DNA of 64,000 bases from Betaproteobacteria bacterium UKL13-2. Its GTDB lineage: Bacteria > Pseudomonadota > Gammaproteobacteria > Burkholderiales > Usitatibacteraceae. The translations under genes and the position numbers were made by a program. The stretch covers positions 2,661,733-2,725,732 of the forward strand of contig CP012157.1 of NCBI GenBank assembly GCA_001602455.1, written 5' to 3'. Shown here in pieces: positions 5,074 through 39,200 of this stretch. Numbering within the stretch: position 1 is the stretch's first letter; each line of letters starts with the position of its first letter. The notes beneath the pieces were generated by a model, which worked only from the letters and a program-made list of their open reading frames with translations, made no database searches and was not told the origin of the DNA.

Positions 5074-5958
5074 CTATTTTGTTGATTGCTTGGGCGAGGC
5101 AACGAGATGCCGCCTGTTCAACCACACCGTTACGATACTTGCCGTTACAAACATAACGAAGGAATAGATCGCTGCAGGGATGGCATACGTCCCATCCTCA
5201 AGAATGTTAATGGCAATGAACATTGCAAGCGCCGCATTATGAATCCCGACCTCCATCGAGACTGCGATGGCCTGTGCGGAAGATAAACCGACTATGCGTG
5301 GCAAACAGTAGCCCAAGGACATTGAAAGTAGATTAAAGGCGACACACGCCATGCCAATCGTGGGCGCATGTTCGACGAGAACTTGGCTATTTTTCCAAAT
5401 TGCGATGGCGCTGAATACGGCCAGCACGAGCACCGAGATTCCCCTCACCCATTTCTCGGCCTCGATGGCTATCCGCAGCGCGTGGTGACGAACCAACATC
5501 CCTAATGTCACTGGCAACAGCACGACCAATGTGACCTCAAATATCTTGCCAAACGGCGGCGGTACGGTCTGACCGCCCGCCTTAAAGTAAGCAAATGACA
5601 GCCACACAATCAATGGAAGCGATACCAGCGCGAGGACACTGTTAATCGCCGTTAAGGTAATGTTCAGCGCAAGATCACCATGCGCGAGGTGACTAAAGAT
5701 ATTTGCCGAGGCTCCGCCAGGTGCGGCGGCCAACAACATCATGCCGATGGCCAGATCTGGGGGCAGATTGAATACCCGGCAAACCACCGCACACAAAAAC
5801 GTCAGCGCAATTGTTTGCGCAAATAAGCCGACCAAGACCGCCTTGGGCATATGAATAACGCGGCGAAAATCGGCTGCTGTCAGCGACAACCCGAGGCCGA
5901 ACATGATGAGCGCCAACGCTGCTGGTAGAAGGATGTTGGTAACAACGGAGCCTTCCAC
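5074..5958 (-). CDS. Bile acid:sodium symporter family (BASS) transporter
   Basis: Integral membrane transporter of the BASS/SBF family, 294 residues with about nine or ten hydrophobic segments. Family features are the N-terminal PAALALIMFGLGLSL, the AAAPGGASANIFSHLAHGD loop (sodium-site region) and the late motif MEVGIHNAALAMFIA. Substrate cannot be told from sequence; members carry bile acids, pyruvate, pantothenate and other organic anions. It lies downstream of the GT4 gene on the same strand, with a repeat copy between them, so it may be cotranscribed with it. Confidence 0.88.
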   Translation of the reverse strand: MEGSVVTNILLPAALALIMFGLGLSLTAADFRRVIHMPKAVLVGLFAQTIALTFLCAVVCRVFNLPPDLAIGMMLLAAAPGGASANIFSHLAHGDLALNITLTAINSVLALVSLPLIVWLSFAYFKAGGQTVPPPFGKIFEVTLVVLLPVTLGMLVRHHALRIAIEAEKWVRGISVLVLAVFSAIAIWKNSQVLVEHAPTIGMACVAFNLLSMSLGYCLPRIVGLSSAQAIAVSMEVGIHNAALAMFIAINILEDGTYAIPAAIYSFVMFVTASIVTVWLNRRHLVASPKQSTK

Positions 5959-6105: not shown

Positions 6106-7365
6106 TTACGCTGATGCATTACCAGCATGTGGCACCAGAATTTCCCGCGGTGCCGGACTGGTCTGGGCGGCCTGGTGAAACACCGCCTCAAGATCACTCA
6201 CCAAGCGCTCCCAATCGAGGCTCTCGGCCACTATCCTCGCCGCCATGCCGATCGCTTTTGCGTTGGGCCAGTCGCGGGCAATCGTTGCTGCAGAGGTCAC
6301 AAATGCGTCCGTGTTGTTGTACGGAACCAAATAACCACTCTCGCCTTGCCGAATCAGTTGTGACGCGGCCGCGTAGTCATACGCCAAGACGGTCAAGCCG
6401 CTCGCCATCGCCTCCGGCGTGACATTACCAAATGTCTCCGTAATGCTAGGGAACAGGAAGATGTCCCCAGACGCATAGTGCCGTGCTAAATCCTCACCGC
6501 GCTGCAAGCCAGCAAACACGACTCCGGGAATCTGTGTCTCCAATTCTTGGCGTGCAGGTCCATCACCGACGAGTACCAGCTTGATCTCTGGCCTGACAAC
6601 ACGCATCGCCTCATAGGCTGCAACCAGTGTACGTAGATTCTTTTCCGACGCTAGCCGACCAACATAGAGAGCAACTGGCGTCACGTCTGTCGCACCCCAT
6701 GACCGCCTCAGTTGTACGTCTCGCTTTGTAGGCGAGAAAAGTCGAGTATCGACGCCACGCGAGACCACACGCAGGTTTTGGAAGCCAACCTGCTGCAATT
6801 CCCGGCGAAGCGATTCGGTTGGCACCATGGTGCAATGGGTACGGTTGTGAAACTTACGCAGGTAGGCAAAGATTGGTTTCTTGAGCCAGCCGATGCCATA
6901 GTGCCCGCTATAGGCATGGAAATTAGTCCGAAAGTCTGATGTAACAGGAAGCTTAAGCTTAATCGCCGCTTGTAAGGCGGACCAACCTAGCGGGCCTTCG
7001 GTGACGATATGAACGACGTCTGGCCGACGCATACTCCAAAGATGAACCAAGGCGTTTTTTGCCGGTAGCCCCATTTTCAAATGGGGGTAGCGTGGGATCG
7101 GCAAGCCCCGCATCAGCACTTCCTCTTGATCTGCAGCGTCGGTCTTGGTCTGACGAGGACGAATCAGTTGCACGTCGTGGCGGCGTGCGCGCAAGCCATC
7201 AACAAAACGGGAGATCGTCATCGCGACCCCATTGATTTCCGGTGGAAACGTTTCGGTCACCACCGCCAGTCGGAGCGAGCGCTGACGCGCCTGCAATTCG
7301 TCGACAACGATATCTCTTGTCATGAAATCGTTCGGATTAGCCATGACGCCAATATGCGTTGGCAT
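6106..7365 (-). CDS. GT4-family glycosyltransferase, probable glycolipid synthase of the phosphate-stress set
   Basis: Retaining GT-B glycosyltransferase of family GT4, 419 residues. The N-terminal domain begins AVVTETFPPEINGVAMT (nucleotide-sugar family hallmark EINGV); the C-terminal domain has ALYVGRLASEKN, LVLVGDGP and the E-x7-E motif in SITETFGNVTPEAMASG. This subgroup includes SqdX/SQD2-like, MgtA-like and Agt-like enzymes that glycosylate diacylglycerol or related lipids. Pairing with a PlcP-like enzyme and pst genes suggests it makes a phosphorus-free glycolipid. In-frame ATGs at 7344 and 7323 are alternative starts; none has a clear ribosome binding site. Sugar donor unknown. Confidence 0.88.
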   Translation of the reverse strand: MPTHIGVMANPNDFMTRDIVVDELQARQRSLRLAVVTETFPPEINGVAMTISRFVDGLRARRHDVQLIRPRQTKTDAADQEEVLMRGLPIPRYPHLKMGLPAKNALVHLWSMRRPDVVHIVTEGPLGWSALQAAIKLKLPVTSDFRTNFHAYSGHYGIGWLKKPIFAYLRKFHNRTHCTMVPTESLRRELQQVGFQNLRVVSRGVDTRLFSPTKRDVQLRRSWGATDVTPVALYVGRLASEKNLRTLVAAYEAMRVVRPEIKLVLVGDGPARQELETQIPGVVFAGLQRGEDLARHYASGDIFLFPSITETFGNVTPEAMASGLTVLAYDYAAASQLIRQGESGYLVPYNNTDAFVTSAATIARDWPNAKAIGMAARIVAESLDWERLVSDLEAVFHQAAQTSPAPREILVPHAGNASA

Positions 7366-7390
7366 TGCAACGTTTTGATGACAATCCCGT

Positions 7391-7475
7391 GTCAGACGTT
7401 GTCGTCAATGCGTCAATCAACCGTCATACGACGGTCATTGCCTCGTCATGCTAGCTCGTCACCATTCCGTCACCC
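7391..7475 (+). promoter_or_regulatory. PhoB binding array between GT4 gene and DUF962-like gene
   Basis: GTCA occurs at 7391, 7404, 7412, 7423, 7434, 7445, 7458 and 7469. The four at 7412-7445 follow at exactly 11-base steps, and the last two are 11 bases apart, matching PhoB half-site spacing. The repeats read on the plus strand, toward the gene at 7515, but they lie between divergent genes and could serve both. No good -10 follows the last site at the spacing seen at the other Pho boxes. Confidence 0.8.
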
Positions 7476-7514
7476 TGCTGCATTGCCACCTTCACAATCC
7501 ACTTGGGAGATACC

Positions 7515-8129
7515 TTGAAAGAACTACTCCATCAACTCCACATCCAGCGCATGGATGACCATCGCTACTACCACCACAGCCGTATCAATCAATCGCTGCA
7601 TTTGCTCAGCGCCTCCAGCTTTGTGGTGGCCTACGCCCTACTCTTTACCGACCCCGCCATGGCTGCACTGCTGGCATGGTGCGTGGCAATGACGAGTCGT
7701 CAAGCCGGGCACTTCTTTTTTGAGCCAAAGGGTTACGACCACGTTAACCAAGCGACACACGAGCACAAAGAGGACATCAAGGTTGGTTACAACCTGCGCC
7801 GTAAAGTTGTCCTGATGACGCTGTGGGCAGTGTCACCACTGGCCTTGTACTTTGACCCTACACTTTTTGGTAACTTCACGCCCGCAGAATCCACCATGGA
7901 GTTACTGCGTCAAGTCGGCATGATGTGGCTTGCCATCGGTCTCGGTGGATTGGTGTTCCGCGTGGTGCATTTGTTCTTCCTGCGTGATGTTGCGACAGGT
8001 CTCGTTTGGGCACTCAAGATCATCACCGACCCGTTTCACGACATCAAGCTGTACTGGCGCTCGCCTTTTTATCTTTTGCGCGGCCAGCTCATTGATCCAA
8101 TGAACCACACTCAAGTCGGGCACGATTAA
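7515..8129 (+). CDS. DUF962/Mpo1-like membrane protein
   Basis: Membrane protein of 204 residues, histidine-rich, resembling the DUF962 (YGL010w/Mpo1-like) group. Visible hallmarks are H-x3-N-x3-H in HHSRINQSLH and a GHFFFEP motif after the second membrane segment, as in the GH-x-F/Y-E motif of DUF962. Mpo1 of yeast is an iron-dependent dioxygenase acting on 2-hydroxy fatty acids; function here is unknown. The TTG at 7515 is preferred because GGGAG (7505-7509) sits 5 bases upstream; the TTG at 7503 lies upstream of that motif. It sits behind a six-half-site Pho array, so it is probably phosphate regulated. Confidence 0.7.
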   Translation: MKELLHQLHIQRMDDHRYYHHSRINQSLHLLSASSFVVAYALLFTDPAMAALLAWCVAMTSRQAGHFFFEPKGYDHVNQATHEHKEDIKVGYNLRRKVVLMTLWAVSPLALYFDPTLFGNFTPAESTMELLRQVGMMWLAIGLGGLVFRVVHLFFLRDVATGLVWALKIITDPFHDIKLYWRSPFYLLRGQLIDPMNHTQVGHD

Positions 8130-9877
8130 GCTGGTAGGGTGCGGGGAGGCAACTTGTCAATGCGCCGCCCCGCCCGCCTCCACAGCCCCACTGGCTTCAA
8201 CCGTTGCGACCAGAATCCAAAGCGCTGGGCCAACCGCTGCGCCAACATCTCGCGCAGAATGCTACGCTTGATGATTTTATTGGTGAGTTTGGCGTCACGC
8301 CACCACCAGCCGTCCGTCTGCATGGCGGTGGCCGCAGCGACGAAGCGTTTTGCAACTTCCTCAAAGTCTGCATCGCTGTAGTTGAGCGAAAAGATAAAGC
8401 GGCCTGTCCCGACCCAGCTCAAGGCCAACCCCTCGGCCCGGAAGTAATACTGCAACATCCAGTTGTAGCGCGAGGGCTCGGTGTAACTCACCGTCCAGAT
8501 CGACGACAGATTGGCCACTTCAACCGGCAAACCCGCCTCACCCAGCATGATATTGAGCGACTCGGCGCGACGATTCCAGGTCGATTCCAGCGACGCATAG
8601 ACGGCTTGTATCTCCGGCGTCTCAATCTTCTCCAGAAAAACTTGCATCGCCCCCATCACATACGGATGCGAGTTGAACGTTCCCCTCGCAAAACAGATGT
8701 CCGCCGGGCGATCTGGATTGAAACGACGCATCCATTCACGCTTGCCGCATACCACGCCAACGGGAAAACCGCCGCCGAGGGTTTTGCCATAAGTGACAAT
8801 ATCGGCGTTGACGCCGAAGTGCTCTTGCGCCCCGCCGCGCGCGAGACGAAAACCGACAAACACTTCGTCAAAAATCAGCGCAATACCCCGTGCCGTGCAA
8901 ACCTCGCGCAACTGCTGCAGCCACGCGGTATAGGCAGCGCGGTCAAACTTGGCGTTACGGCCGCTATCGACCAGCGACGAGTCACCCGGCGCATTTTTAT
9001 TCGGATGCAATGCTTGCAGCGGGTTGACCAACACACACGCGATGTCGTTGCGTGTATTGAGAACATGCAGCGTATCGCGATCCATCTCCTTCAAGGTGTA
9101 GGTGTCACGCGGCGCAACGGGATTACCGGGGCCCGGCTGCACATCCTCCCACCAGCCGTGATAGGCGCCGCAGAAACGAACCAAATGCGTTTTGCGTGTG
9201 TGATAGCGCGCCAGCCGTACCGCCTGCATGACCGCCTCGGTGCCGGACATGTGGAACGACACTTCGTCCATGCCGGAAATCTCGCACAGCTTGGCCACAT
9301 TGCTGGCCACACACGGATGGTAAGCGCCCAGCACTGGGCCCATCGCGGCAACACGCGCGCTGCCTTCGGTCATGCAGGCTTTGTAGAAATCCACGCCGAA
9401 GACATTCACACCGTACGATCCGGTGAGGTCATAAAACACATTGCCGTCCAAATCAGTGAATGTGACGCCCTCGGACGACTGGATAAAGCTGCCGGTCTTC
9501 AGATGCTGCCGCAAAAACGCGCTGTACTGGTACGGCACCCGATAGGCTCCGGTGAACTGCAAATCGGAAATGCTTTCGGCGGCCTCTTGCGTCAGTGCGA
9601 CAGATTTGGTAAAGCGCTCACCGTAGATCGCCGACAGCCTGGCAAGCCCACTTTTTCGGCGTGTAATGACCTCATCCGGCGCACCGTCGGAGCCAAAAAA
9701 CTTGGCTTCGTCGTAGCTATAACCCGGCAACATTTTGGCCACGCGTTTGGCCATACGCGAGTGCCCGGCCAGCGAAGGGTGTTTAGCCATCGAAAGCTCC
9801 AAACGTCGCTTGGCTCGGGGCAGCGCCGCGACCAGCGCGGCAGCACCGGCGACCATCAATGTCAGTGTGGTATCCAT
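8126..9877 (-). CDS. Membrane-anchored class III aminotransferase (GSA-aminotransferase-like)
   Basis: PLP-dependent fold-type I enzyme, 583 residues, longer than the usual 420-460 because of extra N- and C-terminal parts. A hydrophobic segment (about residues 5-20) suggests a membrane anchor. Catalytic features are SGTEA (211-215), FDEV (336-339) and the Schiff-base lysine in YGKTLGGG (K365). The C-terminal 70 residues are basic. It resembles glutamate-1-semialdehyde 2,1-aminomutase but is not expected to be HemL. It faces psd with only 28 bases between start codons and overlaps the DUF962-like gene tail to tail by 4 bases (TTAA). A role in aminolipid head-group metabolism is inferred from these neighbours. 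Confidence 0.85.
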   Translation of the reverse strand: MDTTLTLMVAGAAALVAALPRAKRRLELSMAKHPSLAGHSRMAKRVAKMLPGYSYDEAKFFGSDGAPDEVITRRKSGLARLSAIYGERFTKSVALTQEAAESISDLQFTGAYRVPYQYSAFLRQHLKTGSFIQSSEGVTFTDLDGNVFYDLTGSYGVNVFGVDFYKACMTEGSARVAAMGPVLGAYHPCVASNVAKLCEISGMDEVSFHMSGTEAVMQAVRLARYHTRKTHLVRFCGAYHGWWEDVQPGPGNPVAPRDTYTLKEMDRDTLHVLNTRNDIACVLVNPLQALHPNKNAPGDSSLVDSGRNAKFDRAAYTAWLQQLREVCTARGIALIFDEVFVGFRLARGGAQEHFGVNADIVTYGKTLGGGFPVGVVCGKREWMRRFNPDRPADICFARGTFNSHPYVMGAMQVFLEKIETPEIQAVYASLESTWNRRAESLNIMLGEAGLPVEVANLSSIWTVSYTEPSRYNWMLQYYFRAEGLALSWVGTGRFIFSLNYSDADFEEVAKRFVAAATAMQTDGWWWRDAKLTNKIIKRSILREMLAQRLAQRFGFWSQRLKPVGLWRRAGRRIDKLPPRTLPA

Positions 9878-9905
9878 TCAATCACCTATCTTTAGAAGAA
9901 AAGTT

Positions 9906-10886
9906 ATGTCAGATATACGCGCAATTGTTGACAGTTCTGTGAACGCCGAACACTCCCCGTCGCCGACTTTGCCACCGACTTTGCCACCGAACTTGCCAGC
10001 GCCGCCAGCACCGCTTGCACCACGTTGGCGGGATCGTCTGCTCCAACAGGAAGATCTCAATTTCTTGCTGACCAACCGCGTGCCGCGAATTTTTCTGACG
10101 CGATTCATGGGTTGGTTTAGCAAAATTGAGCAACCGCTGATTCGTGATGCCTCAATCTGGGTCTGGCGCTGCTTTACGCATCTGGATTTAAGCGACGCAC
10201 GCAAACAATCGTTCACCAGTCTGCACGACTGTTTCACGCGCCAGTTGGTCGATGGCGCAAGAACCATCGATCAAGACACCACCGTCATGACATCACCGTG
10301 TGACGCCATCGTTGGCGCCCGTGGTGCCATCGAAGGAACGCAGGTGTTCCAAGCGAAAGGATTTTCCTATGCGCTGGCCGACTTGTTGGGCAGTGAAACA
10401 CTCGCCGAACAGTACCGTGACGGCACCTATGTGACGCTCCGGCTCACCTCAAGCATGTACCACCGGTTTCACGCGCCGCTCGATTGCCGTGTGACACACT
10501 TAACGTACATCTCGGGCGACACTTGGAACGTCAACCCGATTACGCTGAAGCGGGTCGAAAGACTATTTTGCAAGAATGAGCGCGCGGTGATTCACGCTGA
10601 GTCTCAAGGCCGTCGCATGCTGTTGGTTCCGGTGGCAGCGATTTTGGTGGCGAGTATTCGGCTGCACTTTCTGAATGTGCTGTTGCACCTGCGCTACCGC
10701 GGTCCTAACGAGATTGCTTGTGACGCAAGTTTTCGGAAAGGTGAGGAGATGGGGTGGTTCGAGCATGGCTCGACCATCATCGTGCTGGCTGAGAAGGGAT
10801 TCGCGTTGTGCGACGAAATCAACGTCGGCACACAAATGCGGATGGGGCAGCGGCTGATGCAAGTTCCCAGCATTGAACAGGCTTAG
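9906..10886 (+). CDS. psd: Phosphatidylserine decarboxylase proenzyme
   Basis: Converts phosphatidylserine to phosphatidylethanolamine at the membrane after self-cleavage to a pyruvoyl enzyme. The cleavage site is the GST in FEHGSTIIVL (Gly288/Ser289; the residue before is His, whereas LGST is the commonest form). Other motifs are SPCDA (Asp133) and MYHRFHAP (His196, His199). Length 326. The N-terminus carries a proline-rich 12-bp tandem repeat (TLPPTLPP). The start at 9906 is preceded by an AGAAGAAAAG stretch. It is divergent from the aminotransferase. A degenerate second copy lies at 14799-15000. Confidence 0.92.
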   Translation: MSDIRAIVDSSVNAEHSPSPTLPPTLPPNLPAPPAPLAPRWRDRLLQQEDLNFLLTNRVPRIFLTRFMGWFSKIEQPLIRDASIWVWRCFTHLDLSDARKQSFTSLHDCFTRQLVDGARTIDQDTTVMTSPCDAIVGARGAIEGTQVFQAKGFSYALADLLGSETLAEQYRDGTYVTLRLTSSMYHRFHAPLDCRVTHLTYISGDTWNVNPITLKRVERLFCKNERAVIHAESQGRRMLLVPVAAILVASIRLHFLNVLLHLRYRGPNEIACDASFRKGEEMGWFEHGSTIIVLAEKGFALCDEINVGTQMRMGQRLMQVPSIEQA

Positions 10887-11159
10887 TGGCGACGGGAACC
10901 GCCATAGCTGACCCTAAGCCGACACTCAGATTTCCCGAAAGCCGACCTTCGTTTGGTCGCGGAAAGTCCTAGGAGGCTCGGCTCCGATTGCTATCGGCTA
11001 AAAACAATTTGACCCAGACCCTCATGGCACTACCTTAAGCGAACATCTACTCTCAACTTAAAGACATCGGCTTGCCTAAACCGACTCCGAAAACCGTCTC
11101 CCCGGCGAACAACCACAGGGGTCGTGCCATGAGACCCAGACCCCTGATTGTCCGCAGCC
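10887..11159. other. Non-coding stretch after psd
   Basis: No convincing gene. CTCATGGCAC near 11022 and GTGCCATGAG near 11123 form a short inverted repeat, and GACCCAGACCC occurs at both places in the same orientation. It lies between psd and the RND remnant and looks like scar sequence from rearrangement. Confidence 0.4.
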
Positions 11160-11338
11160 GACATCTGTGCTGGCGTCAGACCTGAATAGGTCTAGATGAC
11201 ATTTACGGAAGGGATGGTCATTTCCGGCAGGATGTCGGTGGACATACGCTTGGCCGAAAGCAGACCAAACAACAGAATCAGTATCGCTAGCACGCCCATC
11301 GTGTATTTGTGCTGAAGCGCCTATTGAACAATCCACAT
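11160..11338 (-). pseudogene. Remnant of an RND efflux pump gene (N-terminus only)
   Basis: On the minus strand from the ATG at 11338 one reads MWIVQ, stop, ALQHKYTMGVLAILILLFG, then LLSAKRMSTDILPEMTIPSV, NVI, stop, TYSGLTPAQMS. This is the start of an AcrB/HAE1-type inner-membrane pump (first membrane helix and the porter-domain opening ...P.v.V.t.ysGlsp...). Two in-frame stop codons and the loss of about 1000 downstream codons show it is dead. It lies between psd and the btaA-like gene. Confidence 0.8.
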
Positions 11339-11590
11339 GGCGATTCCCTAGGTCGTCTCGTTGTCTTGTTGTTGGCTTGTGAGTAGCAAGCCCCACGTAA
11401 GCATGGCATGTCTGTGGCGAAAAAGTTCCTGGCGCGTCTCCCGTATTGGTTGTGCGTGGGTTAAAATGCTTTCAACTGAGCACTCGAGGCACGCTGAGCA
11501 AACCGGTGTGACGAATCGGACAAACAAACATCTGCCGCCGCTTTTCAGAAACGTCCAACGACAATTAGCAACGACAAATAGAGGCAGGCA

Positions 11591-12691
11591 ATGACATTGC
11601 CCCACGAATGCCAATTGCAATTCATTAAGCTAGCGTGTGATCTTCGCGTAAAAACGAGTTCAGCAATCAATAAAAGGACGCTTGAAATTCCTACACAGCG
11701 AAATCTGCTGCTTGGCGCTCGCGGGGCATTGCAGTTTGCGGTAGTCCGCGAAGACCCTAGGATCGAGCTCGAGGTGCTCGCCCGACACCCTTGCCAACGC
11801 CTGTTGTTGGTCACTTCCGGGGGCTGCACTGCGCTTGCTCTGCGGGCAGCCGATCCGCAGGTTTGCATCACCTTGGTAGACCCCAATGCCGAGCAGTTTT
11901 CGCACTTGGATCGAAAGCGCCGAGCATTGAGTGCACTGAGCGGCGACGCCTTGAAGGAAGCCTTCAATATTGGCCATTCGAATTCCACTGGTCTCTCGGA
12001 GTCAGGCAACTTTGAGGCGCTGTTTCGTGGCTTGCGGGGTTTTCTACACGACTTCGTATTGCCTTACGAGGCGTGGTCGCGATTGTTCAGCAATCAATCT
12101 CAATCCTCCGAAACACTTACTAGCGCGTTCGCCAGCCCCTACTGGCCGGTCGCCTTTCAGCTGTACTTCTCAAATACGCTGCTCAACACGATGTTCGGCG
12201 TTGACGCGACCCAACATGCCGCGCCGGGAAGCTACCCCGGCTACTTCCAAGCGCTGATCGAGCGCGGCTTGCGGCGCGCTGACGCGCATTGCAATCCGTT
12301 TTTGCACCACATCTTTTTGGGCCATTACGTGGATCGCCGCGAGTGCCTGCCGATCTTTCTCCAAACCCTGCCGTCACGGGCTGGCGATGATGAGTTCACC
12401 TACGTGCATGGCCGGCTCGAAGACGTAGCCAATCTTGGCGAGCACGACTTTGTTGATCTCTCCAACATTCTCGATTGGAGTACCCCCGAGGCCGTCGCAT
12501 GCTTGTGTGCGCATCTGGCAGAAGTCCTCCGCCCCGGTGCCGTCGTCATGTGGCGTCAACTCAACAACTGGCGAGACTTTGAGGCTTGCTTCAATGGCCG
12601 CTTCGCCTTCGACGCGGCATTCGGACAAGCATTGCAGGCACGGGACCAAAGCCTGTTCTATTCAAGTATCCATGTCGGAGTACGCCAGTGA
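11591..12691 (+). CDS. BtaA-like protein (DUF3419), S-adenosylmethionine 3-amino-3-carboxypropyl transferase
   Basis: 366-residue DUF3419 family protein. BtaA transfers the 3-amino-3-carboxypropyl group of SAM to diacylglycerol, giving diacylglyceryl-homoserine, the precursor of phosphorus-free betaine lipid. Visible family marks are VREDPRIE (about 52-59), the SAM-site block LLLVTSGGCTALALRA (71-86) with TLVDPNAEQ (94-102), and LSNILDWS near residue 290. It is somewhat shorter than typical BtaA (around 400). AGAGG lies before the ATG. No btaB methyltransferase is next to it; instead it overlaps a diiron-type gene by GTGA, suggesting a different end product. The acceptor could also be a non-lipid molecule. 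Confidence 0.8.
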   Translation: MTLPHECQLQFIKLACDLRVKTSSAINKRTLEIPTQRNLLLGARGALQFAVVREDPRIELEVLARHPCQRLLLVTSGGCTALALRAADPQVCITLVDPNAEQFSHLDRKRRALSALSGDALKEAFNIGHSNSTGLSESGNFEALFRGLRGFLHDFVLPYEAWSRLFSNQSQSSETLTSAFASPYWPVAFQLYFSNTLLNTMFGVDATQHAAPGSYPGYFQALIERGLRRADAHCNPFLHHIFLGHYVDRRECLPIFLQTLPSRAGDDEFTYVHGRLEDVANLGEHDFVDLSNILDWSTPEAVACLCAHLAEVLRPGAVVMWRQLNNWRDFEACFNGRFAFDAAFGQALQARDQSLFYSSIHVGVRQ

Positions 12692-13425
12692 TTCCCCGGG
12701 CTTTGAATGAGTTGATTGATGAGATTCTGGCCGACACGCCATTCCGAGACAATGCCTACTTCGCCGCGCTACGCGGCGGAACATTTGATCGCGAAGACTT
12801 CATTGAAACGCAGATTCAGTTTTACTTTGCGGTGGCTTTTTTCGGTCGACCGATGGCCGCGGTGGCGGCGAAAATTCCCAGTGCCAAGCTGCGTGTGGAG
12901 ATTCTTCGAAACGTCTGGGAGGAGCACGGCGAAGGCGACGAAGGGATAACCCATGGCTCCACTTTTCTCACCTTGCTCAACCGCCTCGACGGCATCACTC
13001 AATCTGATGTCGAACATAGCGTGCTCTGGCCCGAAGTGCGGCTGTTCAACACGATGCTCACCGGCGCATGCGTGATCGACGATTACTTGGTCGGTGTTGG
13101 CGTGATGGGCATGATTGAACGGATGTTCTCCGAAATCTCCGGCTGGATCGGTGCTGGCATTGTTGAGAGCGGCTGGCTCAAGGCTGAGCAGATGATTCAC
13201 TACAACGTGCATCAGGCGCTGGACGTGCGCCACTCAGAAGACTTTTTTGCCGTGTTGGCGCAACCCTTTGAGCGTGACGCTGACAGTCGTTATTTGATCG
13301 CGCAAGGGCTGCGCCTAGGCGCGTTTGGCTTCAATCGGTTTTACGAAGATCTGTTTGCTGCCCGTAAGCGGCGCATGTTGGTAGGAGTACGCACGTCGCC
13401 GGACGTCAATGACTGGGTTGGCTGA
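12688..13425 (+). CDS. Heme-oxygenase-like diiron oxidase (HDO, TenA/PqqC-like fold)
   Basis: 245 residues from a GTG start that overlaps the upstream stop (GTGA, 12688-12691); the frame is open further upstream but only within the btaA-like gene. Candidate metal ligands are E79 and H80 in NVWEEHGEG, H89, E144, and H175-x3-D179-x2-H182 in the segment HYNVHQALDVRH. The last triad matches the spacing in CADD/SznF/UndA-type heme-oxygenase-like diiron oxidases. Such enzymes do N-oxygenation, C-C cleavage or decarboxylation of amino-acid or fatty-acid substrates. Substrate unknown; the operon suggests a homoserine-type product of the upstream enzyme. Confidence 0.75.
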   Translation: MIPRALNELIDEILADTPFRDNAYFAALRGGTFDREDFIETQIQFYFAVAFFGRPMAAVAAKIPSAKLRVEILRNVWEEHGEGDEGITHGSTFLTLLNRLDGITQSDVEHSVLWPEVRLFNTMLTGACVIDDYLVGVGVMGMIERMFSEISGWIGAGIVESGWLKAEQMIHYNVHQALDVRHSEDFFAVLAQPFERDADSRYLIAQGLRLGAFGFNRFYEDLFAARKRRMLVGVRTSPDVNDWVG

Positions 13426-14244
13426 GTGAGCATTCGTGTCCTCGAATTAGCTGGCGACACATTCGCGAAGTTTCAGGATTCGATTCGCGCATTAGAACAG
13501 GGCATGACGTACCCCTTGGGCGATGATCGTTTCGCCATCGACCACGGTCAGGATTACTTCGCTTTTTTCCGACGCTTGGGTGACCTCGCCTACTTCGTTG
13601 CGCTCGACAACAACCAAGTGGTGGCGGTGTGTGCGGCAGTCAGGCGGCGGCTGCCGCGCTTTGCAGGCGCTGTCGCCGAAAAGGCGTGGTACATATGCGA
13701 TTTGAAGGTGCATCCGGACTACCGAAATCAGCGCATTCCATGGCAGATATTTCTGCACGGCTTCCCCGAAAAATACGCTCGCTGTCAACGCGGCTATGCG
13801 ATCAGCATGAACCCTGGCGATGGCAGCGCCAATCGCGTCGTACGGATGGCGACTCGGTTTCCGCTGGCTCCGATTTCTCTCGCGACTACGCTTGGAATCT
13901 ACTCGCTCTCAGCCGACCGAATGCGTGACATAGAAGGCGTTCTGCGCAGGCAGCTCGGCCCACTTGGCTACCTCAACTTGGGTGGCGCAAAAGACATCAT
14001 TCTGCAAAGTACTGGCGCAGCGATGCCGTTATTGCATTTGCAATATGGGCCTCCCGTCGAGACTGGCAACGCGCTGGTGCCGGCTGCGGTCGATGGCTAC
14101 GTCCACATGTTCTGTTTGCCAAGCGGCGATCCACTTGCGGTTGAGTTGCTCAAGCTTGATGTGCTGCCCGGCGCAACCGCGAGCATCGTTCACCACCGCA
14201 TGCCGCGCTGGAACTGGCGCTGCGTACTCACTAGCGACATCTAA
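13426..14244 (+). CDS. GNAT-family acyltransferase-like protein
   Basis: 272 residues, starting with GTG directly after the TGA of the diiron gene (no gap), so it is coupled to it. The central part YICDLKVHPDYRNQRIPWQI (about 89-108) is the beta4/alpha3 region of a GNAT fold, but the acyl-CoA loop reads RNQRIP instead of the usual R/Q-x-x-G-x-G/A. The C-terminal 120 residues are an extra domain not recognised here. It could acylate the amino group made by the BtaA-like enzyme, or be a non-catalytic GNAT relative. Function not assigned. Confidence 0.7.
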   Translation: MSIRVLELAGDTFAKFQDSIRALEQGMTYPLGDDRFAIDHGQDYFAFFRRLGDLAYFVALDNNQVVAVCAAVRRRLPRFAGAVAEKAWYICDLKVHPDYRNQRIPWQIFLHGFPEKYARCQRGYAISMNPGDGSANRVVRMATRFPLAPISLATTLGIYSLSADRMRDIEGVLRRQLGPLGYLNLGGAKDIILQSTGAAMPLLHLQYGPPVETGNALVPAAVDGYVHMFCLPSGDPLAVELLKLDVLPGATASIVHHRMPRWNWRCVLTSDI

Positions 14245-14316
14245 AACACTGGCCCGCCGCAAGGCTAAAAGGGGTACGCATATTTTCACAACACCGCACA
14301 TAAAAATATCGGCGCC

Positions 14317-14546
14317 TTAGTCGATGAATTTCAGCTTGCGGACTACAAACCGTAACTTGGTTCCCGGACTATAGCCGCGCTCCAGCAGGCGAACGGCTTC
14401 GCGCTTGAATTCCTTGCTAAACGTTTGACGTTTCCGGTCCGGATTGACCTTCGGCGTTTTCTTATCCACTACCACTTTGCTCATTTGACACCCCCTAAGG
14501 CATTGTTACCCTATTTAAAGTGTCCACCAAAACCGGGGTAGCTCCA
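14317..14546 (-). mobile_element. IS3-family remnant: left end and truncated orfA
   Basis: The minus strand from the ATG at 14484 encodes a 55-residue OrfA start (MSKVVVDKKTPK..., KRQTFSKEFKREAVRLLE), the HTH opening typical of IS3-family transposases. It breaks off after LERGYSPGTK and ends at a TAA (14317-14319). Upstream, 14521-14546 (TGTCCACC...GCTCCA) has the TG/CA ends expected of an IS3 terminal repeat. No orfB or second end was found, so it is a decayed fragment. Confidence 0.75.
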
Positions 14547-14644
14547 AGTCACAACGTTTTTGACTTGATTCGGCGGCTCAAAATATGAAATCAGAAAGCA
14601 CTCGCGAATGTCTGCCTCTGGCCGCTTTCCACTGTCCAGCGCGA

Positions 14645-14798
14645 CTACCGAACTTTGCTCAGGCGCTCTGCCATGCGCGTTTGCCAACCCGCACCTGTCG
14701 CTTTCCATCGGTCGATGACATCGGTGGGAAGCCGCAAGGAGATAAGTTTGCGCGGGTTAGTTGACACGGGTCTGCCGCCCTTGTTGACCTTCGCGCGC
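14645..14798 (-). pseudogene. C-terminal fragment of a BrnA-type antitoxin
   Basis: Minus-strand frame reading KGGRPVSTNPRKLISLRL, then PTDVIDRWKATGAGWQTRM and AERLSKVR, stop. This is the ribbon-helix-helix tail of BrnA (COG3514) antitoxins (GRP..., LRLD.DV...FKATG.GWQTR). The N-terminal half and the BrnT toxin are missing; the fragment stops exactly where the psd remnant begins (14799). Confidence 0.65.
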
Positions 14799-15000
14799 GC
14801 CGAGCAGTATCGCGACGGCACCGACGTCACAGTACATCTGATCTCGAGCATGTACCACCGCCTCCATGCAGCGCTTGCATTTCTGGGACGTATTGCTTCA
14901 CTTGCGGTATCGCGGGCCGAATGAAATTACTTGCGACGCACGATTCAAGCGCGGTACAGCAATGGGTTGGTTTGAGCACGGCTCGACCATCATTGTCTTA
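14799..15000 (+). pseudogene. Deleted and frameshifted second copy of psd
   Basis: AEQYRDGTDVTVHLISSMYH followed by RLHA matches residues about 167-200 of the intact psd product; then, one frame over, RLHFWDVLLHLRYRGPNEIT... to FEHGSTIIVL matches about residues 231-294. About 30 codons between the blocks are missing and both ends are gone. Many substitutions (for example D for Y, W for L) show that it is an old copy or came from a relative. Confidence 0.85.
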
Positions 15001-15092
15001 TTGGGCGCGATGACTGCAACGAAGCCGAGCGCAACCTTGACCACAACCAATATCGGTTTATGCTTCTTCGCCTTCTCCTTCTACATCTGGAG

Positions 15093-16043
15093 TCAGCTAA
15101 AAATTCGAATGACTCGGCCGATTGTCCAAAAGGCGGCAGTTCCGCCGATCGCGTAAAGCACTGGTGTGCGCCCTGCCACAATAATCGGCAGCTTGCCGAA
15201 CTGTCGAGCCAGAACATAGGCGAGACCAACGACAAATACTTGGCCGACTTCAACGCCGAGGTTAAATGTGACTAACGCAACGGCGAGATGATTGTCTGGC
15301 AACCCAATTTCTTTCAATGCGCCGGCAAATCCTAGCCCATGAACAAGACCAAACAAAAATGCCACCATCGCTGGCCAGCGTCTCGACAGGCTCATCTCCT
15401 TATGCAATGCTTCGTTCGCCACAAGCATGATTGACAGTGCAATGGTGGCTTCCACCGGCGCGACGCGAAGCGTCAGAATTTCGAGCGCACTGAGCGCCAA
15501 GGTCAGACTGTGAGCCAGCGTAAAGGCGGTGATCGTCCACAACAGCTTCTTGTTAAAGCCAACTAAAAACAGCAGCACAATCACAAACAGCAGGTGATCC
15601 GCACCGCTCAATATGTGCTCGACACCAAGCAGCACATACGCTTGGGCGATTTCACCCCATCCTCGTCCGTCCTCAGCCGCGCCATACAAGCGAACCGATT
15701 TCTGCCCCCCAGTAATCGTATAAACACGAGACTGTCCGTCGAGCCAAAATACTTTTACCAGCGCGGCTGAGTACCGCTGCCCGACACCTTCAATCGCAAG
15801 AGTGCCCTGTAGTCCGGCGTCGCCGCAACGAAGGATATTGGTTACCGCTTCACAACCATCTGGCCAAATGGGCTTTAGCACTTCACTCGCAGGCCGACTG
15901 CCGCTCGCGGTCCATTGCCACAAAAACTCGTTAGGCGATACCTGGCGGAGTTCCATTTCCGCCATACTCATTTCGTGCGCCGCGTTTGAGGTCGGAAGAA
16001 GCAACAATATGAGCCACGCGAGGACTCCAACGAATGTCTTCAT
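15093..16043 (-). CDS. HupE/UreJ-type membrane protein
   Basis: 316 residues: a signal peptide (about 1-21), an extracytoplasmic domain of about 120 residues, then six or so membrane helices with GVEHILSGADHLLFVIVLL, FTLAHSLTLALSAL and FGLVHGLGFAGAL. These His/Asp/Glu-containing helices are the HupE/UreJ family core, a family linked to nickel or cobalt uptake, but this longer subgroup is often found with secreted hydrolases. It overlaps the upstream PpiC-like gene by ATGA (16040-16043), so the two are one operon. Specific function not known. Confidence 0.8.
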   Translation of the reverse strand: MKTFVGVLAWLILLLLPTSNAAHEMSMAEMELRQVSPNEFLWQWTASGSRPASEVLKPIWPDGCEAVTNILRCGDAGLQGTLAIEGVGQRYSAALVKVFWLDGQSRVYTITGGQKSVRLYGAAEDGRGWGEIAQAYVLLGVEHILSGADHLLFVIVLLFLVGFNKKLLWTITAFTLAHSLTLALSALEILTLRVAPVEATIALSIMLVANEALHKEMSLSRRWPAMVAFLFGLVHGLGFAGALKEIGLPDNHLAVALVTFNLGVEVGQVFVVGLAYVLARQFGKLPIIVAGRTPVLYAIGGTAAFWTIGRVIRIFS

Positions 16044-19313: not shown

Positions 19314-19347
19314 ATCGTACGAGAGGATGATGACAAGTCCGTGACAC
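19314..19347 (-). promoter_or_regulatory. Pho box and -10 element upstream of the DUF3604 operon
   Basis: On the minus strand the heptamers CGTGTCAC and TTGTCAT (second at 19336-19330) have GTCA cores 11 bases apart. After exactly 10 bases comes TACGAT (19319-19314). The geometry is the same as at pstS. The start codon of the DUF3604 gene is at 19231. The rest of 19232-19531 holds no gene that can be supported. Confidence 0.75.
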
Positions 19348-36249: not shown

Positions 36250-39200
36250 CTACCGAAAATCCCGCGATGTCGTATTGAGATCACCCATCTCACCAGCAAG
36301 CGCACCTAACAATGCTGTCTTGTCTGTCAAATGCCCTGCCACCACATGTACCACTTCACCTTCGCGCTCGACCGTGCCGGCCACTTCCATCAAACGTGAA
36401 AACACCAGCTCCTTGCGCTGCCGCTCGGCTAAGCGCGACCAAACGATTACATTCAGGTAGCCGGTCTCGTCTTCGAGTGTGACAAAGGTGGTGCCATTAG
36501 CGGTTGATGGCCGTTGGCGGCAGGTCACAATGCCAGCGACCCGCACCAACTGGCCGGCTCTTGCCACACGAATCTTGGCCGCTGACCAGCGTGCGCTTTT
36601 ATCAAGTTTGTCTCGTAACAACGCGATGGGATGGCTGCGCAAGGTGAGCCCAAGGGTTTGGTAGTCAGCCACAACATCAGAGGCTTCGGTTGGTGCGCGC
36701 AGTTTGACTTGCCCATGATCGGCAGGCGCCATAAACATGGCCGCATCACGCCCGGTGCCGAGGGCTGACCATAAGGCATGCCTGCGATTGCCGCTAAGGC
36801 TGGTGAAGGCGTCCGCTGCCGCGAGTGCTTTGATATCACCTTCATCAAGTGACGCACGGCGTTTGAGATCGGCGATGTTGATGAAGGCTTTGTGCGATCG
36901 TGCTTCAACAATGCGTGCGGCGGCGGCATCGGAGAGCCCTTGTACGAGGCGCAAACCTAAGCGTAGTTGGGGTGGGCTTTGTGTATATTTTTCGAATACC
37001 AAACCCAAGCATCCACGGGAGTTTTCAGGCATTTTTGCCTGAAACTGCCCGTCAATAGGGGTGTCTACTAAACTGAAAACTTCTAAAAACTGGGTGTCTT
37101 CCCTGCGTAGGCAGGGATCCAATTTCGTATTTTGTTGATGTGCAATCAAAATTGGATCCCCGCCTGCGCGGGGATGACAGTCTTTTGGGGGTTCGAGAAG
37201 TATCCCCTCGTTTGAGACCAATGAAGAATCCACCTCACTCATCATCACATCTACCGGTAGCACCACTACGCCGTGACGACGCACGTCTTGCACAATGGCT
37301 GACGGCGAGTAAAAACCCAGCGGTTGTGAATTCAACAAGCCGCAGGCAAATGCCGCTGGGAAGTGGCATTTGAGATAACACGAGACATATACCAGCAGCG
37401 CAAAACTCGCGGCGTGTGACTCTGGGAATCCGTATTCACCAAAACCTTGTATCTGCCGATAAATTTGCTCGGCGTAATCGCTGGTGTAACCACGCTCCAA
37501 CATGCCGTTAATGAGTTGATCACGGAACGGCTCGATACCGCCTTTGCGTTTCCAGGCCGCCATGGCACGACGCAGACGATCCGCTTCCCCCGGGGTGAAG
37601 CCTGCCGCAATCACGGCGAGTTGCATCACCTGCTCCTGAAAAATTGACACCCCTAGTGTACGTTTTAAGACGCCTTCAACATCTTTGCTCGGGTAACTCA
37701 CCGGTTCGATGCCCGTGCGGCGCTTCAAATACGGATGCACCATGCCGCCCTGAATTGGCCCTGGCCGCACAATCGCCACTTCGATCACCAGGTCGTAGAA
37801 CGTGGCGGGCTTTAAGCGCGGCAGCATCGACATCTGTGCACGTGATTCAATTTGAAATACGCCGATGGTGTCGGCGCGTTGAATCATTTGGTAAGTGTCG
37901 TGATCTTCGGCTGGAATGTCCTGCATACACAATGGCTGCCGGGTGTAGTCACTAATGAGTTGCATTGTCTTGCGCAGGGCGGTCAACATACCCAGCGCCA
38001 AAATATCGACCTTCAAAAGTCCTAACTCGTCCAGATCGTCTTTGTCCCACTGAATGACGGTACGGCTGGGCATGGCGGCGTTCTCAACCGGCACAAGCCG
38101 TGTGAGCTGATCCCGTGCAATCACAAAGCCACCCGAATGCTGTGAGAGATGGCGCGGGAAGCCAACCAATTGATGTGTGAGTGACAACACGGTTTGCATC
38201 AGTGGATTGTCTGGATCAAAACCCGCCTCGCGCAAACGTTCAGGCGCGATGGCGTGACCGTCCCACCACGCGATAGTGCGCGACAAACTATCAACTTGGT
38301 CGAGTGATAACCCAAGCACTTTACCCATATCGCGGATTGCACCTTTTGGTCGATAGGTAAAAAGTGCGGCGGTTAATGCGGTGCGATGGCGGCCATATTT
38401 TTCATACAGATACTGAATCACCTCTTCACGACGTTCGTGCTCAAAATCGACATCGATATCCGGCGGCTCGTTGCGCTCACGCGAAATAAATCGTTCAAAC
38501 AAGAGCTGCATGCGCGAGGGATCGACTTCGGTAATGCCCAAGCAATAACAGACCGCTGAGTTGGCAGCCGAGCCACGCCCCTGACACAAGATGCCACGGG
38601 CACGCGCAAATAAAACGATGTCATAGATCGTCAAAAAATAGGCTTCGTAATTAAGGTCCGAAATTAATTTGAGTTCATGCTCGATCTGTTTCACCACAAT
38701 CGGTGGATGTTGTCTGCCGTAGCGCTGGTCAAGACCTTGGTAGGTGACACGACGTAGATAACTCTCTGGCGTATCCCCCTCTGGCACAACTTCGCGCGGA
38801 TATTCATAACGTAATTCATCGAGCGAAAAATCACACATCGAGGCAATACGTGCGGCTTCCAGCAACATAGTCACGGGGTATTCACGCAAAAGACGCGTTA
38901 TCGTTTTGAGATGTGATTCGGTATTGGGTGATGCCGCAAAACCTAATTGGTCAACCGTCGTTTTATGATGTACCGCTGCCAGCGCATCGAGCAGTGGCTT
39001 ACGTGAACGAATATGCAAATCTACAAACGGTGTTGCGGCAATCGGTAGATCGACAGCCTTCGCAAGGAATTCAATATGTATCTTTTCGTCGATATCGTCA
39101 GCCGAAAATTGCCTCGAATAACCCAGCCATAAGCGATCCGCACATACCGCCTTCAACTGCCGTAACACCTCTATGACAGGTGAATCAGATGGGGCGGATG

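Follow-up and report, generated by a model that had tools for sequence, protein, structure and literature searches.

What might a protein of the BtaA superfamily make when its gene is joined to those of a diiron oxidase and an acyltransferase-like protein instead of BtaB? The question is raised by three genes (the trio) in the 64,000-nucleotide stretch of DNA analysed here, referred to as the window. Their immediate setting is as follows.

9735-10886: intact phosphatidylserine decarboxylase (PSD) gene, by Pfam
11591..12691, + strand: DUF3419 (BtaA-superfamily) protein, putative SAM-dependent 3-amino-3-carboxypropyl transferase (PF11899)
12688..13425, + strand: heme-oxygenase-like dimetal oxidase (HDO) with 3H/3C ligands (PF14518; profile matches; ligand columns)
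13426..14244, + strand: GNAT-like protein, putative N-acyltransferase (PF00583; 14 invariant residues in 19 rows)
14317..14484, - strand: transposase-like fragment (HTH_Tnp_1) just 3' of the trio (PF01527, E 0.0025, 18.4 bits, cut-off 24.1)
14655..15050, + strand: degraded PSD remnant 3' of the trio (PF02666, E 0.0017, below cut-off)

The coordinates and junctions given in the initial annotation were exact on recheck. The first two genes overlap by GTGA, the HDO start codon GTG lying at 12688 and the DUF3419 stop codon TGA at 12689-12691, and the HDO stop codon TGA (13423-13425) directly abuts the GNAT start codon GTG at 13426. The HTH_Tnp_1 fragment is a mark of past insertion outside the pathway, and the PSD remnant, of which two short stretches are 73-78% identical in DNA to the intact copy, has no part in it. 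In a 16S search, the host came out nearest to Burkholderiales plasmid records, at 88-90% over 65% of the query. Recent foreign origin is unsupported by composition, as the trio's GC (0.557-0.578) and GC3 (0.64-0.66) are near the neighbours' values. An RNA element (Rfam search of 9800-15200, nothing over gathering score), an anti-phage system (PADLOC search with the three trio proteins, no match at E<=0.01) and viral carriage (no relative of P0001, HDO P0002 or DUF3419 alignment A6 in viral_contigs) were likewise considered and rejected.

Recurrence of the trio in other genomes had been set beforehand as a test, and the trio passed it. A scan of one genome per species (84,980 species), seeded with DUF3419 only, yielded 19 loci, in 17 of which HDO and GNAT genes are both adjacent to the DUF3419 gene, so that chance adjacency is rejected; of the other two loci, one (L028) encodes its HDO at another genomic site and one ends at a contig edge. 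The trio is also present on a Mycobacterium riyadhense plasmid and, with this plasmid and the window added to the scan's loci, the three genes stand side by side in 19 of 21 cases. As a control, 13 further DUF3419 loci (L004-L016) were checked for HDO and GNAT genes, with no match better than E 0.18 within loci of ~3.2 kb that cover 0.6-1.4 kb of flank. Trees of all three genes split into the same two sub-groups, and pairwise distances among the genes correlate at 0.82-0.92. The trio is confirmed as a real, conserved unit whose adjacency goes beyond chance. It is rare, scattered across five named phyla and found in none of 12 same-genus genomes; most of its loci come from MAGs, in which both taxonomic labels and contigs may be erroneous. 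Six Streptomyces plasmid records carry an HDO ~60% identical to that of M. riyadhense with no trio-type DUF3419 or GNAT gene on the record, so the HDO can exist in another setting.

Some sequences were set aside in the comparisons. The HDOs of L028 and L029 were left out of the HDO alignment (A5), while the L029 DUF3419 and GNAT proteins are absent from A6 and A4, respectively. The L038 DUF3419 gene reads in two frames; it was excluded from A6, A7 and the core comparison and kept as read in the tree. L017 was excluded from A7, A8 and the DUF3419 core comparison, and L016, a truncated sequence, from the DUF3419 tree and core comparison. One gene-calling run performed poorly on G+C-rich loci and was used for the L038/L035 cluster only.

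The first gene product matches PF11899 with 86.4 bits (cut-off 28.2), and the BtaA-type SAM-site motifs noticed at the outset are intact, with the residues S-G-x-C, D-x-N, D-W, R and Y common to trio and BtaA-like proteins. The predicted model of the window protein matches the SAM-methyltransferase fold; by analogy, the protein is probably an aminocarboxypropyl-group transferase. A PDB sequence search returned 0 matches for the protein and E 0.18 as the best match for the DUF3419 profile, hence no clear solved relative. Grouping with BtaA-like proteins was not found: in the DUF3419 tree (midpoint root, long branches), a 100/99 branch separates the 21 trio rows from the 13 BtaA-like ones, the latter named by similarity and in the case of L041 also by a neighbouring methyltransferase. 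The SGGC-to-DW spacing is 197-219 residues in 16 window-type proteins against 261-266 in 13 BtaA-like ones, making the window-type core ~42-69 residues shorter; in group II, the shortening is only ~12-20 residues. Residues T80, E142, S291 and N292 of the trio proteins are N, G, L and D in the BtaA-like proteins. Ahead of the EDP motif, seven trio ORFs have only 7-15 residues, compared to 30-57 in 11 of the 13 BtaA-like ORFs, and the window ORF has 52. Given that the first 46 residues of the latter have no counterpart in relatives (the core runs from about residue 46) and are poorly modelled (pLDDT <50 at 16-45, a low-confidence helix at 5-20), the true DUF3419 start may be further in than 11591.

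Shorter core, divergent residues and short pre-EDP stretch together count against diacylglycerol as acceptor, and a small or soluble molecule is considered somewhat more likely. The argument is weak, since the missing segments are without known function, group II is little shortened and the window ORF does have its 52 pre-EDP residues. The shortened core could also mean that there is no second substrate, the enzyme closing the aminocarboxypropyl group on itself to azetidine-2-carboxylate or homoserine lactone for HDO and GNAT to tailor. Such SAM cyclisation is known in natural-product pathways (PMC10491745). However, E142, F145, N235, R322 and Q323, invariant in the trio proteins and located outside the SAM site, may suggest a bound acceptor, and we regard cyclisation as improbable here. 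The 50 fold matches listed for the DUF3419 model comprise no nicotianamine or azetidine synthase, which excludes neither.

The initial annotation had described the trio as lacking BtaB, and this stands: none adjoins the trio, and with the BtaB-like protein of L041 as query no match at E<=1e-3 appeared in the 21 loci (short contigs in some cases). The best BtaB match elsewhere in the host genome is only a PmtA-like methyltransferase, which shares 33% identity with a rhizobial BtaB-like protein along 137 of the latter's 224 residues. Ordinary DGTS synthesis, in which this methyltransferase would act in trans and HDO and GNAT be unrelated passengers, would nonetheless have to explain why both accompany this DUF3419 clade over five named phyla; with the clade distinct from BtaA-like proteins and BtaB-like matches missing from the loci, it is judged very improbable.

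The second gene product matches PF14518 (iron-containing redox enzyme) with 72.6 bits (cut-off 28.9) and belongs by score and ligands to the 3H/3C HDO superfamily. Profile search matches the solved CADD, HrmI and BesC chains, and the ligands align with those of solved HDOs. The diiron pattern noted from the start is a complete 3-His/3-carboxylate set in sequence: E79, H89, E144, H175 and D179 are identical in all 20 aligned rows and H182 is kept in 19, L025 having N. A CADD-type self-sacrificing pABA synthase was rejected, as the Tyr27/Lys152 positions are F25/I154 in the window HDO and TIGR04305 scores 33.4 bits against a cut-off of 200. The GNAT-like core assigned to the third protein holds up weakly: PF00583 scores 23.7 bits, just over its cut-off of 20.7, and covers residues 44-104 of 272 only, which leaves the C-terminal half unassigned. 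PF00583 is matched at E<=0.01 by 12 of the 19 proteins in the trio GNAT family, and no siderophore-acyltransferase family (IucB/MbtK-type) is among the Pfam matches of the window protein and its family.

Based on these assignments, the trio is read as a self-contained, horizontally spreading cassette for aminocarboxypropyl transfer from SAM, diiron oxidation and N-acylation, with a probability of roughly 0.48, a little short of even odds. The DUF3419 enzyme would move the 3-amino-3-carboxypropyl group of SAM to a nucleophile (a hydroxyl, if BtaA is a guide) to give a homoserine-ether-type amino acid. The diiron site of the HDO would bind this amino acid and oxidise it by N-oxygenation, desaturation or C-C cleavage, all known reactions of the HDO superfamily, and the GNAT protein would then acylate the nitrogen. 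The claim that such a pathway is undescribed agrees with a literature search, in which none with DUF3419, HDO and GNAT was found.

The trio product may be a small amino-acid-derived compound, and we slightly favour a small molecule that is exported over a lipid built on diacylglycerol. The neighbourhoods differ between the window and the other loci, and no flanking gene common to most of them was seen. L032 has HlyD and EmrB-type MFS exporter genes directly 3' of the trio and L017 an MmpL gene; some hosts may export the product. The earlier reading, in which DUF3419 acts on diacylglycerol like BtaA and HDO and GNAT deliver an oxidised, N-acylated phosphorus-free lipid, is possible though doubtful. 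It draws on the BtaA-superfamily membership and the 52 pre-EDP residues of the window ORF, and on neighbours that count against a small molecule: MmpL in L017, a PAP2-type gene with a desaturase adjoining the trio in L035 and L038, and, in the window, pst genes, the PSD gene and a GT4 gene whose top NCBIfam matches, all under their cut-offs, are lipid glycosyltransferases, with Pho-box-like repeats nearby in a motif scan. Apart from the separate clade and shorter core of its DUF3419, it is opposed by two congeners that keep this pst/GT4/PSD neighbourhood where the trio was not found. A further point against the lipid reading is the desaturase/hydroxylase adjoining the trio in three loci, which has the arginine hydroxylase GntB as best NCBIfam match (below cut-off) and is nearer to it than to fatty-acid desaturases. 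The same Pho-box scan gave no match in 10887-11590, 5' of the trio, which says little on Pho control since there was none 5' of pstS either.

A narrower form of the small-molecule reading, in which the HDO N-hydroxylates the homoserine-type amino acid and GNAT acylates the N-OH to a SAM-derived hydroxamate, exported as a metal-binding or antibiotic-like compound, is considered unlikely; if true, BtaA and HDO chemistry would be combined in one type of pathway found across five named phyla.

Lastly, our study has importance in revealing a separate clade within the BtaA superfamily, scattered in its phylogenetic distribution and encoded next to genes for a diiron oxidase and an acyltransferase-like protein in 19 of the 21 loci seen. 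If the suggested chemistry holds, aminocarboxypropyl transfer in this superfamily extends beyond betaine lipids. As the three genes are short and in many cases coupled in translation, simple heterologous expression would be a way to look for the product.

The closest known system is the BtaA/BtaB (DGTS) pathway, with which the trio shares DUF3419 family, SAM-site residues and coupled gene layout, and from which it differs in the separate clade, the shorter core and HDO plus GNAT replacing BtaB. Hydroxamate siderophore pairs combine an N-hydroxylase with a GNAT acyltransferase, as do IucD/IucB of aerobactin. The logic suggested for the trio, N-oxidation followed by acylation, would be similar, but an HDO takes the place of the flavin N-hydroxylase and the GNAT protein lacks a siderophore-acyltransferase Pfam match. 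The 3H/3C oxidase is shared with the amino-acid pathways of HrmI, BesC, PolF and MboA and with self-sacrificing CADD, whereas a DUF3419 aminocarboxypropyl transferase partner is described for none in the portion of the HDO literature examined. According to PMC13108848, only about a dozen HDOs are functionally validated, with mainly amino or fatty acids as substrates, so that adding a further class of substrate would be instructive. As regards the donor, the proposed first step would resemble nicotianamine synthase (NAS), CntL, MccD and isonocardicin synthase NAT, of which NAT, like BtaA, is apparently not homologous to the other three; in all of them, SAM provides the aminocarboxypropyl group (PMC10491745).

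The trio of DUF3419, diiron-oxidase and GNAT-like genes is a real, conserved and rare three-gene unit with intact signatures, and it is probably mobile. The three reading frames and their junctions (a GTGA overlap, then a zero-base junction) were borne out on the sequence as initially annotated, with the following Pfam assignments:

11591-12691 (+), DUF3419 protein; 86.4 bits, cut-off 28.2
12688-13425 (+), iron-containing redox enzyme (PF14518), the heme-oxygenase-like diiron oxidase (HDO); 72.6 bits, cut-off 28.9
13426-14244 (+), GNAT protein, weak; 23.7 bits, cut-off 20.7

No NCBIfam model attains its own cut-off against these proteins. Residues 1-46 of the DUF3419 frame are without counterpart in relatives and are of low quality in the structure model. 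When the window proteins were compared by tblastn with 72,556 plasmid records, a Mycobacterium riyadhense plasmid was found to carry all three genes in the window order, followed by an MmpL transporter. The alignment of the two DUF3419 proteins (A1) seeded a single scan of 84,980 species, one genome each, with HDO and GNAT playing no part in locus finding. The 177 pattern matches gave 19 confirmed loci, which are not 19 independent events because close relatives are among them (L024/L026, L032/L033, L035/L038). Since the patterns favour the trio-type DUF3419 subclade, the scan is uninformative on BtaA proper and its member list incomplete. The recurrence elsewhere for which the initial annotation had called is evident from tblastn, the three genes being adjacent in 17 of the 19 loci. 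One further locus (L028) has DUF3419 and GNAT adjacent and the HDO elsewhere in the genome (E 7e-104); the other (L034) breaks off where its contig ends, and the rest of that MAG yielded no HDO. With window and plasmid included, adjacency holds in 19 of 21 loci, eight in the order DUF3419-HDO-GNAT and eleven as DUF3419-GNAT-HDO; 4-base overlaps are common and the widest gap is 364 bases (L031). Going by record titles and tree labels, the hosts belong to Myxococcota, Planctomycetota, Verrucomicrobiota (Pedosphaera), Actinomycetota and Pseudomonadota, the last including Rickettsiaceae, Endozoicomonas and others. Such labels may be mistaken for MAG records, which make up 17 of the 19 scan loci.

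The trio shows signs of co-inheritance. Five loci (L017, L035-L038; group II) split off from the remaining ones in each gene tree, and pairwise distances correlate at 0.92 (DUF3419-GNAT), 0.82 (DUF3419-HDO) and 0.84 (HDO-GNAT), much of which is expected to reflect this two-group split. Judged by the starred tree branches, gene order changed at least twice. Among 300 relatives, the window DUF3419 protein matched in 14 genomes, at full length only in its own, which has a single DUF3419 gene; the other 13 matches are weak (18.8-37.2 bits), and all 12 that entered the tree group with BtaA-like proteins. No match came from any of the 12 congeneric genomes (73-100% complete). Against 398 Pseudomonadota genomes, the DUF3419 profile scored 422 bits on the window's own gene, and four others were listed at E<=1e-10, with at most 44 bits. 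Gene order is kept from the pst end (congener G009) or from the gene at 5074 (congener G007) through phosphatidylserine decarboxylase (PSD), and both syntenies end at 10861. Past the break point G009 has a transposase-like ORF, of IS30 type on our reading, and in the window the trio is followed downstream by a fragment resembling a transposase and by a decayed stretch of PSD. Insertion of the trio cassette at this site is the simplest reading; its base composition gives no sign of recent acquisition. The intact PSD (9735-10886) lies upstream of the trio, and the decayed, diverged copy (14655-15050) sits beside the transposase-like fragment. Also beside PSD is a long (583 aa) class III aminotransferase (8126-9877, -), related to glutamate-1-semialdehyde aminomutase and 94% identical in two congeners.

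The neighbourhoods give mixed signs, so that a lipid product is neither proven nor excluded. No flanking gene common to most trio loci was seen among about 30 flanking proteins scanned. An HlyD and an EmrB-type exporter immediately follow the trio in L032, and an MmpL lies beside it in L017. Three loci in Pedosphaera and Gemmataceae MAGs (L035:6012-7935, L038:316-2248, L036:10689-11633) have a membrane desaturase/hydroxylase whose top NCBIfam match is the arginine hydroxylase model GntB, at 71-75 bits against a cut-off of 380; a PAP2-type gene accompanies it in two, L035 and L038, the latter assigned via clustering. In the window itself, a block of pst, GT4 and PSD genes lies on one side of the trio and a block of HupE, PPIase and metallohydrolase-like genes on the other. 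Pho-box-like matches number 11 in the window against 4.7 expected, with clustered repeats at 7378-7449, 19319-19347 and 39162-39190; repeats stand in the gap from GT4 (6106-7365, -) to an Mpo1-like gene (7503-8129, +) and ahead of the CehA/McbA-like-PPIase-HupE block, with none before the trio or before pstS.

The absence of BtaB held across all 21 trio loci, some of them short contigs, none of which has a BtaB-like match. A BtaB in trans had been entertained; the best match in the own genome is a 204-residue protein whose top NCBIfam model, below cut-off, is the phospholipid methyltransferase PmtA. Ordinary DGTS is an unlikely product, given these BtaB searches and the single DUF3419 gene, though such a PmtA-like enzyme might act in trans. 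The gene trio stands as initially described, and its lipid interpretation becomes one of several readings. The DUF3419 superfamily may extend beyond betaine lipids. Other plasmid DUF3419 genes also lie in biosynthetic-looking operons, with KAS III and AMP ligase (Rhizobium sp., L042:4001-5074), UbiA and AMP-binding proteins (Roseinatronobacter, L078:3830-4930), or DoxX-like and DUF2071 genes (Streptomyces, L077:5482-6411).

The shortest chemistry using all three enzymes would be aminocarboxypropyl transfer by the DUF3419 enzyme, oxidation of the resulting amino acid by the HDO and N-acylation by the GNAT protein; N-oxygenation followed by acylation, the boldest reading, would yield a hydroxamate. 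Of the three assignments, acyltransfer is the most tentative, because Pfam GNAT models cover only residues 44-104 of the window protein, PF00583 matches 12 of the 19 family members (E<=0.01) and the best profile hit in the PDB has E 0.012. The family has 14 invariant residues in 19 sequences, including E24, Y29-P30, H40-G41, Y44, Y89, D92 and K94.

The link of the HDO to the other two genes is perhaps not obligatory: on six plasmid records from Streptomyces there is an HDO that shares about 60% identity with that of M. riyadhense, and neither trio-type DUF3419 nor GNAT was found on these records. Group II stands together with the Streptomyces row in the HDO tree. At both plasmid loci inspected (L018:9259-10645, L019:9262-10660) the HDO immediately follows an EF-hand calcium-binding protein. 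We found no described product or pathway for the trio in the open-licence literature, where other names could escape the search; the parts of PMC10491745 consulted list BtaA and other aminocarboxypropyl transferases and mention no HDO partner, and the residue terms sought in PMC11965152 were absent there. According to PMC13108848, PMC13185094 and PMC12614342, HDO substrates known so far are mainly fatty or amino acids, and the reactions include N-oxygenation, C-C cleavage, desaturation, and azetidine and alkyne formation.

A 20-row HDO profile (18 from trio loci, two from Streptomyces plasmids) matched CADD (8.5e-12), 4-aminobenzoate synthases, HrmI (3.5e-8) and BesC (4.5e-7) in the PDB. E79, H89, E144, H175 and D179 are invariant in all rows and H182 in 19. 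They align with CADD E81, H88, E142, H174, D178 and H181 (numbers counted off the printed alignment), which we take to be its metal ligands. The diiron-oxidase pattern noted initially thus extends to a complete 3-His/3-carboxylate set in the alignment. This set provides the ligands of most HDOs according to the review PMC13108848, which also gives Tyr27 and Lys152 as the CADD residues cleaved. The window HDO has Phe and Ile at the aligned positions and therefore, as judged from its sequence, does not look like a self-sacrificing enzyme of the CADD type.
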